The notes beneath the pieces were generated by a model. It was not told where the DNA came from. It worked only from the letters and a program-made list of their open reading frames with translations, and did no database searches. A stretch of 64,000 bases of DNA from Phascolomyces articulosus (taxonomy: Eukaryota > Mucoromycota > Mucoromycetes > Mucorales > Lichtheimiaceae), in assembly GCA_025677815.1 (NCBI GenBank), contig JAIXMP010000001.1:1-64000 (forward strand), written 5' to 3'. This document shows, one piece after another, positions 46,509-54,641 of the stretch. The position numbers and the translations under genes were made by a program. Position 1 is the first letter of the stretch, and each line of letters opens with the position of its first letter.

Positions 46509-48221
46509 ATGTATATTACCTACGAAACAGCACAATGGCATGAAAACCAAGATAATAGCGATTGGAAATATCAATACATCAAAAGCGAAACACAACTGGT
46601 CACATTTCCCAACATATTACCCAAAACAGAATTTATGCCTACCAAACTTGTCCGTATTTCTGATATGAAAGTGGTGGAAGGGTCCCACATCAAAGAAGGA
46701 TACTGTACCTTATCCTATTCTTGGAATCAATCTGGAGATAGCGTAGTGGATCCCATTACTGGAAAAGAAAAACGACTCGATGAAGGCAAGCACCAACTTG
46801 TATTTTCTCCCCTCAGTACTCTCCAACATGTGTATTATAAAATGCAAAACAACGATATACCCGATACATCAAAACATGTTCTATTCGAAGGCATCATTCA
46901 ACATATGTGTCAACAATTTAACATTCACTATCTATGGTACGATCAAATGTGCATCAATCAAGACGACAAGGAAGAAAGAAAACGTGAAATACGAAATATG
47001 CATCGTATTTACAATAATGATTATTGTACTATTGCACTCGTCCCTGAATTCTATGTTGAAACAGAAAAGGATGGTAAACCTTCGTTTAATACTGTTTCCG
47101 ACGTTCAAGTCCTGTATGGCTCATTTCATTATTTCAAACGTTTATGAACCTTGGAAGAAGCCATCAAATCAAAACAACTGCAATTTGTCGGTAGAAATTT
47201 TCATATTTGGGGAAATTATACGGCATCAGCACCTGTGCATGATTTGAGTAGATCATTAGAAGATTTAAATGTGCAACAAATTTTATATCATGCTCATCAA
47301 CGAACTAGTACAAGAGAACACGACCGTGTATTTGCGCTTGCCAATCTATTCCCTGATTTTATTGACCAAATCAATTTTGATGATGATCAACCTATTGAAG
47401 ACTTGATGATACATTTTTACGGTCTATTAGCTAAAAAAGACATCGGTATATTGTTTTTTAAAAAATACAGTGATGATTATCAATCCACCATTCAACACTG
47501 TCACTTTTTGCCATCATGGACTGGAAGACAAGGAGAACATGACATTATGTCAAAGAGAAAGACATATTTTCAAAATTACAAAGTGATTGGCAAAACAATG
47601 CATTTGGCTTCTGCTTATATTACAAACGAGTCTTCTTCCATGGTCAATCATGATGCTTTGGAATTACGGTGTGAGGATTTGCCACCTATCCCGGAAGGGC
47701 GTAATAATAATAACAACGGCGACGATGACTACGATGCATATTACGATGATACTATTGGTATTTCCTATGATCGAAGGGATTATTACTTTTTAGGCTTAAA
47801 GGTCCGATTACCTGGAACAAACGATATCAAAACCATCAGAATATCGGATCGTAGCTGCAATGACAGTTGTTCTCAAGAGAAAGAATACATCCATGCTCTA
47901 TCGAAAAAAGTCGAACAACTATCAAATTTTTTTGTGGACACAAAAAAGGAAAATCTATACTGGCTTTTCGATATGGTGTTTGGTGATAAAAATGAAGCCA
48001 ACGCTATCTTTAATTTCGATTCTTTGGTGGAAGAACTGGAGTGCGATACATCGGTAGATTATGTGATTCTCACTTCGGCTTCTTTTCAACGAAATAGTCA
48101 AGATACCAAATACCATTGCCCTGTCATTAGAAAAAGCATGGAGAAGAATATTATAAATCTATTGGCAATTGTTATATACGAGATGCAAAGTATCTTTTCT
48201 CTGGTTGTAGTTTACGTTTAA
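46509..48221 (+). pseudogene. HET-domain protein gene interrupted by a single in-frame TGA
   Basis: A frame of 571 codons runs 46509-48221, broken only by TGA at 47145-47147 (codon 213). Before it, EGYCTLSYSWNQSG (residues 64-77) and YLWYDQMCINQDDKEERKRE (about 140-160) are the two signature blocks of the HET (heterokaryon incompatibility) domain. After it the frame continues TLEEAIKSKQLQF, RTSTREHDRVFALANLFPDF and a long C-terminal region. The stop lies in FKRL-stop-TLEEA, exactly where HET proteins usually have Trp (R-x-W-x-x-E), so a TGG to TGA change is the simplest explanation. HET domains trigger non-self recognition and cell death in ascomycetes; their role in early-diverging fungi is unclear. 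It is either a recent pseudogene, a read-through gene, or a 212-residue truncated protein. Confidence 0.8.
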
Positions 48222-49499
48222 AATTTGGTTTTTATTTAAAGTTTCTGTTGAACACATCGTCCTTGTTGGACTTTTTTGTTCGAGACAGATATTAAGAGAA
48301 AAAAGTGGATGAAAACCCTGCGCTCGTAAGCAGGGAAAAAGTTAAGAGGGAAAAGTTAAAGGGTATGTCATATAAAATATGAGGGGTTATAGTGAGTCTG
48401 TTTATAGAAAGTAAGTGACATAAAGTGGTAACTGTATCTAACTAAGTAATGAGAGTACACTAGGGAAAAAGGAAATGGGGAAGAAAGAAAGGTAATAATA
48501 AAATAAAATAAAATAAAATTAAAATAAAATAAAATAAAATAAAATAAAATAAAATAAAATAAAATAAAATAAAATAAAATAAAATAAAATAAAATAAAAA
48601 AAATAAAAGAGAAGAAAAGTAGTTATAAGGAGAGTGTCGTATTCTACATAATAAAATAACTCTATGATAAAACATATAGTATATAAGGGCTCAGCCCAAA
48701 GAACATGTCCAAATAAGGAAACCCAAATCCTTCAATTTTAAAAAGGAAATTAAGTCAAATCGCATAACGATGTACTACACAATAAAATCTAAAAGAAAGG
48801 ATCAAAGGGTGCGCCATATTCTTGCACTCGATCCTATGGATCCCATATTACTATCATCCTCATAAAAGAAATAATTATACAAGAAGGACCCGAATCTGTT
48901 ATACATAATACATAATAATCCACTAAGCCCTCATCCATCATAGAATAGAAAAAGTATAAATAAGCCATTGTGAAAGTAATTGTAAAAACCCTTTAATTAA
49001 CTTTTTATTTTAATTCGGAACTCTCATAGTAAACCTTTAAGAAAAGTCTCAAAGGATTCATACCAACTATTTTCTATTTTTTGATATAAAAACCTACTAA
49101 ATTCCACAGAGAGTATAAATAGCAAACTTACTCTGCTTCAGAAGGAGGGGGAGGAGTGATCCATTTTACCAAAGCATGACCGGGAGAGTCCTCGTAGTAT
49201 TGTTGGAGGTTGCTGTATAATAACGCAAGTCTAATTTGTATACTTACAAACGGGTTCGATTAGACAGTGTGAGGAAGCGCGAAATGAAATATAATAGAGT
49301 AGTTAAGGGTCGAGATATATGAATAATAAAACGATATGGGATCTTGGTTTACAAGATCCCTCTTTTTATATACGTCGAAATATAAGGGTTAATCTAACGT
49401 CTATGCTAATATAAATGATCTACATTTCCATAACTATACTGGTCCATCTTATATTTCTATATACAACCATGCGTTCATCCATAATCATCCATATGGTTA
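48222..49499. other. Intergenic, flanks the LINE 3' end
   Basis: No gene seen. Contains the AAAAT microsatellite listed separately and otherwise AT-rich DNA up to the recognisable end of the retrotransposon remnant. Confidence 0.45.
48497..48608 (+). repeat. (AAAAT)n pentanucleotide microsatellite
   Basis: About 22 AAAAT units with one TAAAAT interruption near 48520. A shorter TTTTA run occurs at 43639-43666. Confidence 0.95.
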
Positions 49500-50850
49500 T
49501 TTATATTGATCCGTCCAATTATCCTTGTATATATTGATATCCACGGATATGCTGATCAACGACTTCATGGGTTGTATATCATCGTAATGGTCTACACCAT
49601 TACATGCTGCCAGGGTGTTGGTATGCATCAAGTTCTGCAAGTATTTTACACACAATTGGCCATTTACTGCTTAAGTGGTGGATTCTGCGTAGTGAGGTTA
49701 GTTTCGATTTTGGGAGCTGATTTAGGATGTGAGAGAGAGGATCTTCATGGTATTATGGTAACTGTAGACGATGGTGCATGTGTAGACAATGTATAGCATG
49801 TTTCTTTGTAAGTATTTGTGAGGGGCATCTTGGACAAGGTTTGGGTCTTCTACCTGGAAGCCAACCAAACCTCCATCTGATACAGCGGCTTCTTTCCTTG
49901 TTTGTCATTGGGATCCACATTATTGGACCAACACCTAATTTCGGGAGACAGGCACATACTAGTTTTGCACCCGTCAGTGTAGAATGTATATTTTCGAAAG
50001 TGTCAACTAAGTATTAGTGGATGATTGTCTTAAGCATTATTCCAGAGATATCATTGTATAGTTGTGGGAGAAGGTTTACAATATCTGATTTGTTGCAAAG
50101 TTTGCTCCAGTAACTTCTTTTTTGTGCTTCGAATCCTGGTAGCAATTGTGTTAGGAGTGCATCTTCAGGTAAAAATTGTGCTCTGTATACAAATTTGACT
50201 TGCAATGTTGCTATTCGTTCTGACATACTTGGTAATTCAGTGAGATGGCGCATGATTTTTGTTTCGGATTTAGAATGTGTACTGTAAATTATACGAATGC
50301 ATTGGTTTTGAGCTTTTTCAATATTAGCTAGTTGTGGTGTGGTAAAGGTTAATATGGCTAGTCTATACTCGGGTTTAGGCCTTATAAATTGTGTGTAGAG
50401 CTGACTGGGTAGGATTCTAGAGAAGCCATAAGGGCTGAGGCCAATATTGTTTAGAACTCGTATGCTGTTAATAGCTAAGATTGTGTTACGTGTAACTAGC
50501 TGTTGTGCATCTAGATAACCCTTATTGTTGATCGGCACCCCAAGATAAGTAAAAGAAGTTTGGTTTGGATTGGGATTTCATATAGATGATAAATGTGTTC
50601 TGCATTAGCTGACAGTATGATAGCACATTTTATTGGGTTCCATCTATATCCTAGATCAAGACTGTGTTGTTGGCAGAGATTAAGTAGATTCTGCATGTTG
50701 TTTGCTGTACTAATGAGTACCACATCATCTGCATATAGGAGGTATTGAATATTTGGGAGTGGACTTGTAATGTCCAAAGTTGAACGTTGCTCTCTACTAT
50801 GTTGTTGGCATGGAATGGTTGTAGTTTACTGGTTTTTTCCAAATTATTTG
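49500..50850 (-). mobile_element. Decayed non-LTR (LINE) retrotransposon, 3' half
   Basis: Minus-strand translation shows the reverse-transcriptase catalytic block NIQYLLYADDVVLIS at 50700-50765, then YRWNPIKCAI and, after a frameshift near 50550, TYLGVPINNKGYLDA, a long thumb/linker region (SIRVLNNIGLSPYGF, EYRLAILTFTTPQL), and a final cysteine/histidine block CPRCP..HAIHCLHMHH at about 49770-49835 typical of the LINE C-terminus. Frames are broken by a frameshift and several stops. Sequence 5' of the YADD block is missing: the homology stops within about 70 bp of the inverted-repeat element at 50851. I found no LINE sequence on the far side of that element. Confidence 0.8.
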
Positions 50851-51378
50851 CGCCAATAAGGATGAGATTTTGCGTTTCCACAGAATTTTTTTGCGTCACT
50901 TGTGAAGGGTTTTGCGTTATCTAGGGAACAAATTTGTGCCAGTAATGTTGCATTACAAGTTTTGTGTTCCTATTTTTGCGTCGCTCTGCTTATCTATTTT
51001 TATAACGCGAACAAAGTGGCTAGATGAATTCTGATCGAAGTTGAAGCAAATCAAGACAGCATCAGCATTATTGTTCTTAGGTTTAATATTATTAATATAA
51101 TAGGTGTTCGAAGAGACAAATTGAGTAAGAAAGATCGATTATTGACCTCGAGAATAACGGAAGGTATTTTCTTTGTTGTTATATAGTAGTCTTGTAATAA
51201 AATAAAAGTTGGTACATACAGTGTTTCGGGAATTACTAGTCACCCATTTTGAAATCAGTGTCGCACCTGGAGAAAAGGGGTATCGCATTTTCACCTGTCG
51301 CATTTTTTAATGCTTGTTTCTGAAACCACAATATTTTTTTTAATAGAGCGTAAAAAATGAACTGGTGTGAACTAGAGC
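50851..51378 (+). repeat. Left terminal inverted repeat (528 bp)
   Basis: Reverse complement of 54110-54641 except for a 4-nt deletion (AAGACAG versus AAGTAAGACAG), an A/G change a few bases later and a T/C change near the inner end. The outer 135 bp contain four direct copies of TTTTGCGT (50868, 50889, 50910, 50974), candidates for transposase binding. Confidence 0.93.
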
Positions 51379-51508
51379 TTAAAAAATTGCACCGGTGTGA
51401 ACCAGTGTGAACCGGAGCTAGTTAAAAAAATAAACCAGTGTGAACCAGAGCTTAAAAAATTGCACCGGTGTGAACCGGAGCTAGAACCAGTGTGAACCGG
51501 AGCTTCCT
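51361..51508 (+). repeat. Left subterminal repeat array
   Basis: Short array of the unit containing GTGTGAACCGGAGCTAG and TTGCACCGGTGTGAACC, in the opposite orientation to the right array. Two canonical CACCGGTG palindromes. It ends 40 nt before the recombinase-like gene start and may form its promoter. Confidence 0.85.
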
Positions 51509-51548
51509 CTCTTCCTTTGTTCTTTACTCTTCATATCTCTTTATCAGA

Positions 51549-52891
51549 ATGAATATTACAGAAGGCCAGGCATTATGCATGCTCTTTTCAATGGAGTGCA
51601 CAGAAGAAAACATTAGCCTGTTGACCAAGAAACTTGAAAGCTATGAAGAACTTCTATTGTGCTACGAGACACACCCACTGAACCCTGTACTTGTCACTAA
51701 GTCACGAGTGTTTTCCTTGCCTTACACGTTTAAACGCTATTTGATTGAGTCACCTACGGCAAATCATGCAACAAATGAAGTAAAATTATGTATGTAATCT
51801 AAGAATGTTTGCACTTGTATGATTCTAATATGCACTCTTGTTTTTTTCTTGTAATGAAGCGTCTGGTACGCATGTAGTTCAATTTATAAATGCTGCCTTC
51901 TGTGCCAATGAAGTACCAAACAACCCCGCATATACTCAAGAAGATATTACTTCCAAGGATATCTTTACTTCCATTCTGCCTTATACCGATATCTTTGACG
52001 AAAAAACGGTTCTTGGATTTTCTCAATGGTGCGTGAAGAATAAACCTGGATTCATAACGTTGCCGGTCACCAGAAAACGAAAACACGGTGTTAATGCCAG
52101 AACCCGGCAGCTATACGTCCTAAAAAAAGAATATTTAGGTAAAGCTACATAGTTGTGTCATACTGCTCTATTATACTAATTGTCTTTTTTTTTTATTACA
52201 TGGTAGCTAATTTGGCTAAGAACATTGTCATGTTCTTACCCAACCATCAAAATTACATCAAACAACTGAAAGAAGAAGGATACGAAATTGTTGGTTACGC
52301 GCGGAAGTCACCTGGGGAACAACCAAACCGATTAGCAAATTTGACAGCCATGGTGAACAAACTGAAGGAACGATCTTTTGTAGATAAATGCTTTATATCA
52401 AGAGTTAGCAATGCTTCTGACGAGCTAGGAGAACGAGACCTGCGTGACACATCAACTTCGAACATACCAGGAACCCACGGAAATACCCAAGGTATGTTGT
52501 ACGTTATTATATCTATAAACAAAGATAATTATATACCTGACCCTCCTACTTTTTAGATATGATCGGTCACATTGCTTCTAGCAACAAGAAAATATGCCTC
52601 GTTGTCATTGACTACGCTGGCTTCAGCACAAACCAACAGAATATTTATGATTTTGTCCAGTAAGTTATTAACTTATAAAACCGAACATGTTAATTTTTTT
52701 ATGTCCAAACTTGTTAATAGACTAACATTTCTTTTACAAGTAACCACAAGGCATTGGAAAAGATAATCATCGACCAAATACCGTATTACAACCAAACAAC
52801 ATGCTTTACTAGAAGTCAAATACTGGATGATATTTCAGTTCTCTCTGTATTTGACTGCCGAATGAAGACTTTACAACGATCCAAGGCTTGA
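51549..52891 (+). CDS. Transposon-encoded serine-recombinase-like protein, 5 exons, 352 aa
   Basis: Exons 51549-51789, 51860-52138, 52207-52491, 52557-52659 and 52741-52891 sum to 353 codons, all in phase. Residues 1-80 form an N-terminal domain (MNITEGQALCMLFSME, LNPVLVTKSRVF) shared with the second gene of the element. A middle region has a basic block (PVTRKRKHGVNARTRQ). The C-terminal half has a predicted beta-alpha pattern: EGYEIVGYARKSPGEQ, then TAMVNKLKERSFVDKCFIS, RDL, and ICLVVIDYAGFST. This tracks the serine-recombinase order (Y-A-R-x-S, then LVV..LDRLSR). However, the D-R-x-x-R arginines read D-Y-A-G-F, so the active site is degenerate, differently arranged, or the similarity is only structural. 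No DDE triad was recognised. It is the only candidate transposase of the element. Confidence 0.8.
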
Positions 52892-53014
52892 ATAAAATAA
52901 ATACAACCTTTTTTATATTTTTATTATATCATTTGATACCATAAAAATGATGCTCTCCTATTTTAAAATAATTTATCAATATAATAAATAGTCTTCATTT
53001 GCAAAGTTCCCCGT

Positions 53015-53236
53015 TCAAAATTCTTTTCCAGTAGAGGAACGGTATCTCTTGTAATGATGAGGTTCTGCCAAGATTTTTTTGCGAGTGACCAAGACAGGTT
53101 TTTCATAATCGTTTTCAAAACAGATGTCTAATTCCCCAAGATCGTCAATCCTTTTCAATAGTCTTGCGGCATTTTCATGGTTAAATTCTACACTGTAAAA
53201 CATGCAGATGGCTTGTTCCCTTGTTATATCTTCCAT
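53015..53236 (-). CDS. Stand-alone N-terminal-domain paralogue of the element's recombinase-like protein, 73 aa
   Basis: Minus-strand frame from ATG at 53234-53236 to TGA at 53015-53017. Its product (MEDITREQAICMFYSVEFNH, then KPVLVTRKKIL and HHYKRY) aligns end to end with residues 1-66 of the neighbouring gene. By eye about a third of positions are identical, including PVLVT and KRY. It stops just where the larger protein continues, and no in-phase splice onward was seen. It faces the larger gene tail to tail, and its start is about 75 nt from the right subterminal array. It may be a truncated second copy or a regulatory (repressor-like) short product. Confidence 0.65.
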   Translation of the reverse strand: MEDITREQAICMFYSVEFNHENAARLLKRIDDLGELDICFENDYEKPVLVTRKKILAEPHHYKRYRSSTGKEF

Positions 53237-53309
53237 TTGCAGTTGAGATCAAATACAAGATTGCAGAAAAAATTGGCGAGGGCATGTTCCAAACTTTACA
53301 CTGGTTTAT

Positions 53310-54130
53310 TTTTTTTATACAGCTCCGGTTCATAGCGGAGCAATTTTTTTAAGCTCTCGTTCACACTGGTTCACACTGGTTAACTAGCTCCGGTTCACAC
53401 CGGTGCAATTTTTAAGCTCTGGTTCACACTGGTTTATTTTCTTTAACTAGCTCCAGTTCACACTGGCTCACTAGTTTATCTTTTTAACTAGCTCCGGTTC
53501 ACACCGGTGCAATTTTTTAAGCTCTGGTTCACACCGGTTCACACTGGTTTATTTTCTTTAACTAGCTCCGGTTCACACCGGTGCAATTCTTTAAGCTCTG
53601 GTTCACACCGGTTCACACTGGTTTATTTTCTTTAACTAGCTCCGGTTCACACCGGTGCAATTCTTTAAGCTCTGGTTCACACTGGTTCACACTGGTTCAC
53701 ACTGGTTTATTTTCTTTAACTAGCTCCAGTTCACACTGGCTCACACTATTTATCTTTTTAACTAGCTCCGGTTCACACCGGTGCAATTTTTTAAGCTCTG
53801 GTTCACACCGGTTCACACTGGTTCACACTGGTTTATTTTCTTTAACTAGCTCCAGTTCACACTGGCTCACACTATTTATCTTTTTAACTAGCTCCGGTTC
53901 ACACCGGTGCAATTTTTTAAGCTCTGGTTCACACCGGTTCACACTGGTTTATTTTCTTTAACTAGCTCCGGTTCACACCGGTGCAATTTTTTAAGCTCTG
54001 GTTCACACCAGTTCACACTGGTTTATTTTCTTTAACTAGCTCTGGTTCACACTGGTGCAATTTTTTAAGCTCTGGTTGACACTGGTTCACACTGGTGCAA
54101 TTTTTTTAAGCTCTGGTTCACACCAGTTCA
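53310..54130 (+). repeat. Right subterminal tandem-repeat array, expanded
   Basis: Units of about 65-75 bp with the shape TTTAACTAGCTCCGGTTCAC, CACCGGTGCAATTTTTTAAG, CTCTGGTTCACACCGG, then ACTGGTTTATTTTC. I count about seven CACCGGTGCAA copies and further CACTGGTGCAA variants. Higher-order units containing TTCACACTGGCTCACACTATTT recur at about 53735 and 53863, showing segmental amplification. Long open frames here are artefacts of the repeat. Confidence 0.93.
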
Positions 54131-54641
54131 TTTTTTACGCTCTATTAAAAAAAATATTGTGGTTTCAGAAACAAGCATTAAAAAATGCGACAGGTGAAAA
54201 TGCGATACCCCTTTTCTCCAGGTGCGACACTGATTTCAAAATGGGTGACTAGTAATTCCCGAAACACTGTATGTACCAACTTTTATTTTATTACAAGACT
54301 ACTATATAACAACAAAGAAAATACCTTCCGTTATTCTCGAGGTCAATAATCGATCTTTCTTACTCAATTTGTCTCTTCGAACACCTATTATATTAATAAT
54401 ATTAAACCTAAGAACAATAATGCTGACGCTGTCTTACTTGATTTGCTTCAACTTCGATCAGAATTCATCTAGCCACTTTGTTCGCGTTATAAAAATAGAT
54501 AAGCAGAGCGACGCAAAAATAGGAACACAAAACTTGTAATGCAACATTACTGGCACAAATTTGTTCCCTAGATAACGCAAAACCCTTCACAAGTGACGCA
54601 AAAAAATTCTGTGGAAACGCAAAATCTCATCCTTATTGGCG
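54110..54641 (-). repeat. Right terminal inverted repeat (532 bp)
   Basis: Reverse complement of the left repeat; carries the 4 extra bases. Ends CCTTATTGGCG at 54641, immediately followed by unrelated sequence. Confidence 0.93.

Follow-up and report, generated by a model that had tools for sequence, protein, structure and literature searches.

Mariner-derived arms enclose a gene with a predicted serine-recombinase fold in the mould Phascolomyces articulosus

We find that an element in the 47.4 Mb genome of Phascolomyces articulosus, a mould of the order Mucorales, is best explained (at a probability of about 0.5) as a chimera, in which mariner-derived arms of the DD34E, TA-target type enclose a gene for a predicted winged-helix serine recombinase, and whose last move was likely driven in trans by a DDE transposase already resident in the genome. 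The element lies in a window of 64,000 nucleotides (the whole stretch of DNA analysed), where its two arms are the sole inverted repeats of at least 60 nt with copies no more than 8 kb apart, and sit at both edges of the gene-bearing unit, facing outwards as transposon ends do (Table 1). A first-pass annotation had described a near-intact transposon, starting at 50851, with long terminal inverted repeats (TIRs) of 528 and 532 nt that differ by two substitutions and one 4-nt indel. Recomputation returned the same lengths and differences. However, the true left terminus lies further out, with the end motif starting at 50829 behind a TA at 50827-50828, and the copy is not near-intact, because the right arm ends 22 bp before the family terminus. 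The only open reading frames (ORFs) of at least 60 aa inside the element are the exons of the gene itself and one small N-domain ORF. The gene-bearing interior is single-copy, and we found no second genomic copy that combines these ends with this gene, so that movement as a unit is not seen.

Table 1 Features of the element, in window coordinates
Feature	Position	Strand	Description
Left-junction TA	50827..50828	.	Same place as the TA at 22 of 30 end-family junctions
Left terminus, mariner-type end family	50829..50850	+	Exact end-motif match
Left inverted arm	50851..51378	+	Mariner-type end sequence and scrap of DDE transposase 3' end
Left subterminal array	51392..51498	-	5 units of GGTTCACACYGG, at most 1 substitution each
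Recombinase-like gene	51549..52892	+	Five exons, 352 aa
Convergent ORF	53015..53236	-	73 aa, N-domain only
Right subterminal array	53358..54126	+	31 units of GGTTCACACYGG
Right inverted arm	54110..54641 (start approximate)	-	Last 22 bp of family terminus absent

The sequence at the left end, outside the range first annotated, reads TA followed by CTGGTTTTTTCCAAATTATTTGCGCC (in its longer form, TA followed by CTGGTTTTTTCCAAATTATTTG). The possibility had been raised that the TIR is unique in the genome, yet related ends occur genome-wide: with as many as 2 mismatches allowed, the end motif matches 53 sites and its reversed control 6. TA stands at the expected place in 22 of the 30 end-motif junctions for which DNA was fetched, and on both sides of 6 of the 7 paired elements of this end family, while some motif pairs are MITE-like and only about 125-142 bp apart. 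One relative, L022 (C23:1533642-1535505, motif to motif), has the same ends around an intact protein of 430 aa, which carries a DDE_3 domain (PF13358, E 2.2e-24) with D261, D367 and E402 in DD34E spacing; the end family is consequently of Tc1/mariner type, and the repeats of the window arms, judged by their sequence, belong to this resident DDE family with TA junctions. Long TIRs around a serine-recombinase-like protein had earlier been presented as a non-standard transposon design, whereas the TIRs are those of a resident Tc1/mariner-type family and the gene looks like cargo.

The window arm aligns with both ends of L022 at 70-81%, and with the 3' end of the L022 transposase gene at 69% over 141 nt, the transposase scrap being placed in reversed order relative to the left end of L022. 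These alignments indicate that each arm carries an internally deleted mariner relic. L022 and the window element thus have in common their outer ends, the TA junction and the 3' end of the transposase gene; they differ in that L022 encloses a DDE transposase between arms of about 140 nt, and the window element a recombinase-like gene between arms of about 550 nt. The window element encodes no DDE transposase beyond the 3'-end scrap in its arms, and because the intact transposase gene sits in its relative L022 we regard it as mariner-derived rather than as an autonomous member. Matches to the L022 transposase, whole or partial, number 101 genome-wide, among them several uninterrupted frames long enough to be of use, and these could supply the enzyme in trans. 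In the window copy the family terminus is present on the left and absent on the right; a TA also follows position 54641, but there it stands behind the truncated end. The left terminus is preceded, at a distance of 6 bp, by the end of a LINE-like copy, and the left TA may derive from this neighbour rather than being the original duplication. We have seen no intact pair of mariner ends around a recombinase-like gene.

The enclosed gene (exons 51549-51789, 51860-52138, 52207-52491, 52557-52659 and 52741-52892) encodes a product identical to a public hypothetical protein of P. articulosus (P0001), in agreement with the five-exon, 352-aa model proposed at first pass. No Pfam domain is found in this protein, neither a DDE domain nor Resolvase (PF00239); PF00239 likewise has no match in 18 family members, nor in the six frames of the genome, by a search that was positive in 10 of 14 control genomes. 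Searches of Pfam, NCBIfam and PDB sequences gave no trustworthy match for the protein or its family, the IS607 model being matched by a single family member of 18 (E 0.087), and Rfam gave none. Two family-profile matches, to TRM6 (E 0.0069) and, for the middle domain, to FOXO1 (E 1.1-1.6), were not trusted.

The predicted structure supports a resolvase-type catalytic fold for residues ~199-345, as the first-pass annotation had proposed, within a predicted order of N-domain, winged helix and serine-recombinase domain. The same annotation had seen no DDE enzyme, which agrees with the Pfam result and with the predicted model and its structural matches, neither of which supports the DDE fold that would have refuted its reading. 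Foldseek searches of PDB and BFVD with the model gave no match at E <= 0.001; the fourth PDB match, at a probability of 0.91, is a serine recombinase (3pkz), and proteins named as recombinases or integrases take the first two places in BFVD and several others among the top 20. The list of structural matches barely covers the first 80 residues of the model, and we claim no fold for the N-domain. Alignment by hhalign to nine serine recombinases of phages and plasmids, whose profile was built in three template orders, matched motif A (~25 aa, p ~0.005) in two of the three orders and fell elsewhere when TP901-1 was placed first. The profile joins the protein to serine recombinases over motif A only, and the wider fold comes from the predicted model.

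Conservation of the active-site motifs was counted in 18 of 20 aligned sequences, P0020 and P0021 being left out since their gene models look mis-spliced. Among sequences with a residue at the position, motif A (Y-x-R-x-S) keeps its tyrosine in 17/17, its arginine in 16/17 and the nucleophilic serine, Ser208, in 15/17; of other arginines, R250 is kept in 16/16, R215 in 15/17 and R229 in 14/17. The motif-C stretch reads IDYAGFST where the canonical form is LDRLGRS. We set the motif-C register by eye, and the hhalign global alignment places the stretch two residues away; in either register no sequence has an arginine in columns 286-293 (13-15 residues per column). Two arginines of motif C, D-R-x-x-R, are catalytic in characterised serine recombinases. 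Given their absence, the sequences suggest a protein that is either chemically compromised or reliant on other residues.

A dense array of the 12-bp unit GGTTCACACYGG lies at the inner edge of the arms, with 36 copies at up to 1 substitution (5 left and 31 right, in opposite orientation) against 0 in 50 dinucleotide shuffles; the right array runs into the inner end of the right arm. A genome-wide search that tolerated up to 2 mismatches found the double array unit at no other site. The C-terminal tail (FTPVHF) of a relative, P0003, resembled the array in another species, a resemblance that was discarded, given that 5 of the 141 other proteins compared also have a 6-residue word in common with translations of the array. 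The 73-aa ORF, which like the array had escaped the first-pass annotation, faces the gene on the minus strand and repeats the N-terminal domain of the main protein, with 40% identity over 63 aa to that protein and 43% over 68 aa to an Umbelopsis relative (P0007).

Near-identical arms had been taken to mean that the element moved or was homogenised recently. A 6-kb relative, L017, speaks against dating the element in this way: flanked by TA at either end, it has a transposase broken by stops and frame changes, yet its arms share a tract of 631 nt at 100% identity, while the outermost 51 nt are 88% alike. As so decayed an element keeps identical arms, arm identity is no clock, and long near-identical TIRs should not necessarily be read as a sign of recent movement. 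If a stretch of one arm had been copied onto the other, this would account both for L017 and for the 22-bp shortfall of the window element.

The gene family occupies 8 loci in the genome, that in the window included. The catalytic exon has 7 further genomic matches, 3 of which contain an internal stop, and several loci are only partial matches. In the 9-10 kb of DNA fetched for the other 7 loci, no mariner end motif is present with 2 mismatches or fewer (a limit of 4 admits two weak matches, one in L027 and one in L030), and none of these loci has defined ends or a target pattern. L026 carries the gene and a convergent N-domain-only ORF between different arms of its own (216 and 61 nt, 94-95%), the end sequence of which is found at L026 only. 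L028 also lies between older inverted repeats, and L031 between inverted copies of an apparent retroelement; the 1,968-nt arms of L031 were rejected as ends of a recombinase element, since their ORFs look like two inverted retroelement copies. No inverted repeats longer than 33 nt occur at L025, L027 or L029, and L030, which begins at a contig end, has a single inverted pair of 31 nt.

Relatives of the protein occur in many Mucoromycota, and all named relatives belong to this phylum, in line with the first-pass statement that similar hypothetical proteins recur in Mucorales; a pattern scan and tblastn found none in prokaryote genomes or viral contigs. We compared their identities with those of MRE11 from the same window, a single reference gene (Table 2). 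The Parasitella protein is 89% identical where MRE11 is 50%, over 149 aa of a fusion gene model that also contains a helix-turn-helix segment (PF13551 at E 8e-5, short of its cut-off), which suggests horizontal transfer, the family as a whole not being slow-evolving. Sporodiniella, with 76% where MRE11 has 50%, fits the same view, whereas several other relatives, such as Halteromyces (34%) and Radiomyces (28%), fall below MRE11 and speak against it. The sequence comparison thus suggests that the gene has been transferred between distantly related moulds. The Circinella minor protein differs mid-protein over about 12 residues, which may reflect a frameshift or an annotation choice.

Table 2 Identity of relatives to the recombinase-like protein, beside that of one reference gene
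Species	Recombinase-like protein	MRE11
Circinella minor	92%	85%
Zychaea	84% (131 columns)	78%
Parasitella	89% (149 columns)	50%
Sporodiniella	76% (179 columns)	50%
Hesseltinella	46% (350 columns; second match 72%, 76 columns)	54%
Halteromyces	34%	57%
Radiomyces	28%	53%

Under the chimeric explanation that we favour, a DDE transposase supplied in trans would cut the mariner-type ends at TA, and the recombinase-like protein would ride along as cargo, as Fanzor1 does in other mariners. The predicted winged helix would have the subterminal 12-bp array as its target, in the manner of IS607 TnpA on its subterminal repeats. Since motif C has lost its arginines, we propose that the main part played by the protein would be that of a DNA-binding or accessory factor; the small protein of 73 aa, which consists of the N-domain only, would tune it, perhaps as a competitor. 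The arms would have become near-identical by copying of one onto the other, and not through recent transposition. With its right terminus missing, the window copy is now probably immobile.

Several alternative hypotheses may explain the same structure. The arms may never have moved the gene, if a mariner relic beside an older recombinase-like locus was copied to its other side by conversion or inverted duplication. The shared tract that stops 22 bp before the terminus on the right is consistent with this, as is L017, whose identical tract lies inside less similar outer ends; moreover, the N-domains flanking the interior share just 40% identity, and therefore the inverted layout is older than the identity of the arms. 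Yet the arms stand at both edges of the unit, facing outwards like transposon ends, and no remnant of an older, non-mariner boundary was recognised, so that we hold this history to be somewhat unlikely. A further possibility is that the gene belongs to the ordinary complement of host gene families, with no more than an incidental relation to the repeats. It is spliced, is annotated as a gene and has relatives across many Mucoromycota; however, the stops that interrupt 3 of the 7 other matches to the catalytic exon, the several partial loci, the very uneven cross-species identity beside MRE11 and the inverted repeats at L026 and L028 as well make this highly improbable.

A different origin would follow if the recombinase-like protein were a transposase in its own element, a eukaryotic one that used IS607-like serine-recombinase chemistry, had subterminal repeats and acquired mariner arms later. 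A predicted winged helix precedes the catalytic domain, the order described for IS607 TnpA in the available text of PMC6188088; a large subterminal array is present, and in this element only; 7 of the 8 family loci are without mariner ends in the fetched DNA; the motif-A serine and arginine are largely retained, cross-species identities suggest transfer, and the gene recurs with its convergent N-domain ORF at L026 between different arms. Against this stand the complete lack of arginines in the motif-C columns, the want of defined ends or a target pattern at the other 7 loci, the restriction of the L026 end sequence to L026, and the stops in the other catalytic exons, and we consider such a transposase unlikely. 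We judge it quite unlikely, too, that there is in Mucoromycota an undescribed class of eukaryotic serine-recombinase transposon, whose winged-helix enzyme would have an active site rebuilt without the motif-C arginines, bind a dense subterminal array, be paired with a convergent N-domain-only regulator (as in the window element and at L026), hop between fungal species and sometimes borrow mariner ends.

Among known systems, the closest parallel to the chimera that we propose is with Fanzor1, which the available text of Bao and Jurka 2013 (PMC3627910) describes as carried by mariners with TIRs and TA duplications, some lacking a transposase of their own. As far as that text goes, both have mariner-type TIRs around a protein that is not a DDE enzyme and has its relatives among the transposon proteins of bacteria, whereas the window element differs in its predicted serine-recombinase fold, which is not that of Fanzor, its long arms, its dense 12-bp array and its lost right terminus. 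No TnpB/Fanzor companion, usual in the IS607 family, is found inside the element, and the four genomic PF07282 matches are on contigs C23, C45, C27 and C33, with none on C1. In IS607 TnpA, according to the available portions of PMC6188088, a winged helix lies before the catalytic domain and the protein binds subterminal repeats. The IS607 family has neither TIRs nor a target-site duplication, in contrast to the arms of about 530 nt in the window element, the protein of which departs from TnpA in its extra N-domain and in a motif C without arginine. IS607-like serine recombinases were also acquired horizontally by Saccharomyces kluyveri, where, in the text available to us (PMC2715888), they have multiplied, in some cases with replaced catalytic residues, and are recognisable IS607 relatives with 27-31% identity to bacterial proteins. 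In contrast to the proteins as described there, the present family has no Pfam Resolvase match, contains introns and occurs in many Mucoromycota. The portions of the open-licence literature available on Mucorales and on serine recombinases from elements of fungi or other eukaryotes contain no description of it.

These results point to a family that is present in many Mucoromycota and invisible to Pfam, with a predicted serine-recombinase fold and an altered active site. They make testable the question of whether, with the arginines of motif C gone, such a fold can still carry out chemistry on DNA or has turned into a DNA-binding passenger, for which the 12-bp array in a mariner-derived element offers a ready set of candidate binding sites. 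As far as the accessible accounts of Fanzor1 allow, the theme of eukaryotic DNA transposons that take up mobile-element proteins of bacterial type, exemplified by Fanzor in mariners, would thereby extend to a second class of protein.

The end family of the window element recurs at L017, where a second element with long arms is flanked by TA on both sides; between its arms lie a decayed DDE gene and several further ORFs. It is possibly another cargo carrier. At L026, a recombinase-like locus with its own different arms, a 21-bp unit repeated about 164 times forms an array upstream of that locus. We also observed an additional N-domain copy, interrupted by one stop and absent from the catalytic-exon search results, with 42% identity to the small convergent N-domain-only ORF of the window (53015-53236).

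Four PF07282 (TnpB/Fanzor-type) matches occur in the genome (three above the cut-off), none of which adjoins a recombinase-like locus. The gene model of P0006, the Parasitella parasitica relative of the window recombinase-like protein, joins a helix-turn-helix segment, which looks transposase-like, to recombinase-like exons, and may represent either a nested insertion or a real fusion.

Coordinates of associated features
Feature	Location	Size or match
HET-domain (heterokaryon incompatibility) ORF	window 46509-48221	PF06985, E 1.1e-15
LINE-like reverse-transcriptase element piece	window 48212-50822
Long-arm element	L017 2365-8446 (C15)	6 kb
21-bp repeat array	L026 6-3411 (C57)	3.4 kb
N-domain copy	C31:6896-7087
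PF07282 matches	C23:1327991, C45:1634757, C27:718569, C33:524465

Within the window, about 2.6 kb separates the HET-domain ORF from the element under study; after this ORF comes another open frame, to which no Pfam domain matched. Pieces of the LINE-like element, whose copy at L022 carries an RVT_1 domain match (E 2.2e-27), were found beyond the window at 12 distinct loci among those examined (L018, L022, L024, L026, L036, L038, L040, L041, L042, L047, L053 and L059). The end of the piece lies 6 bp from the mariner-type terminus in the window and approximately 12 bp from such a terminus at L038 and L053, a proximity that gives no rate, since the loci were selected by their mariner-type ends. 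Mariner-type ends may be preferred targets of the LINE-like element.
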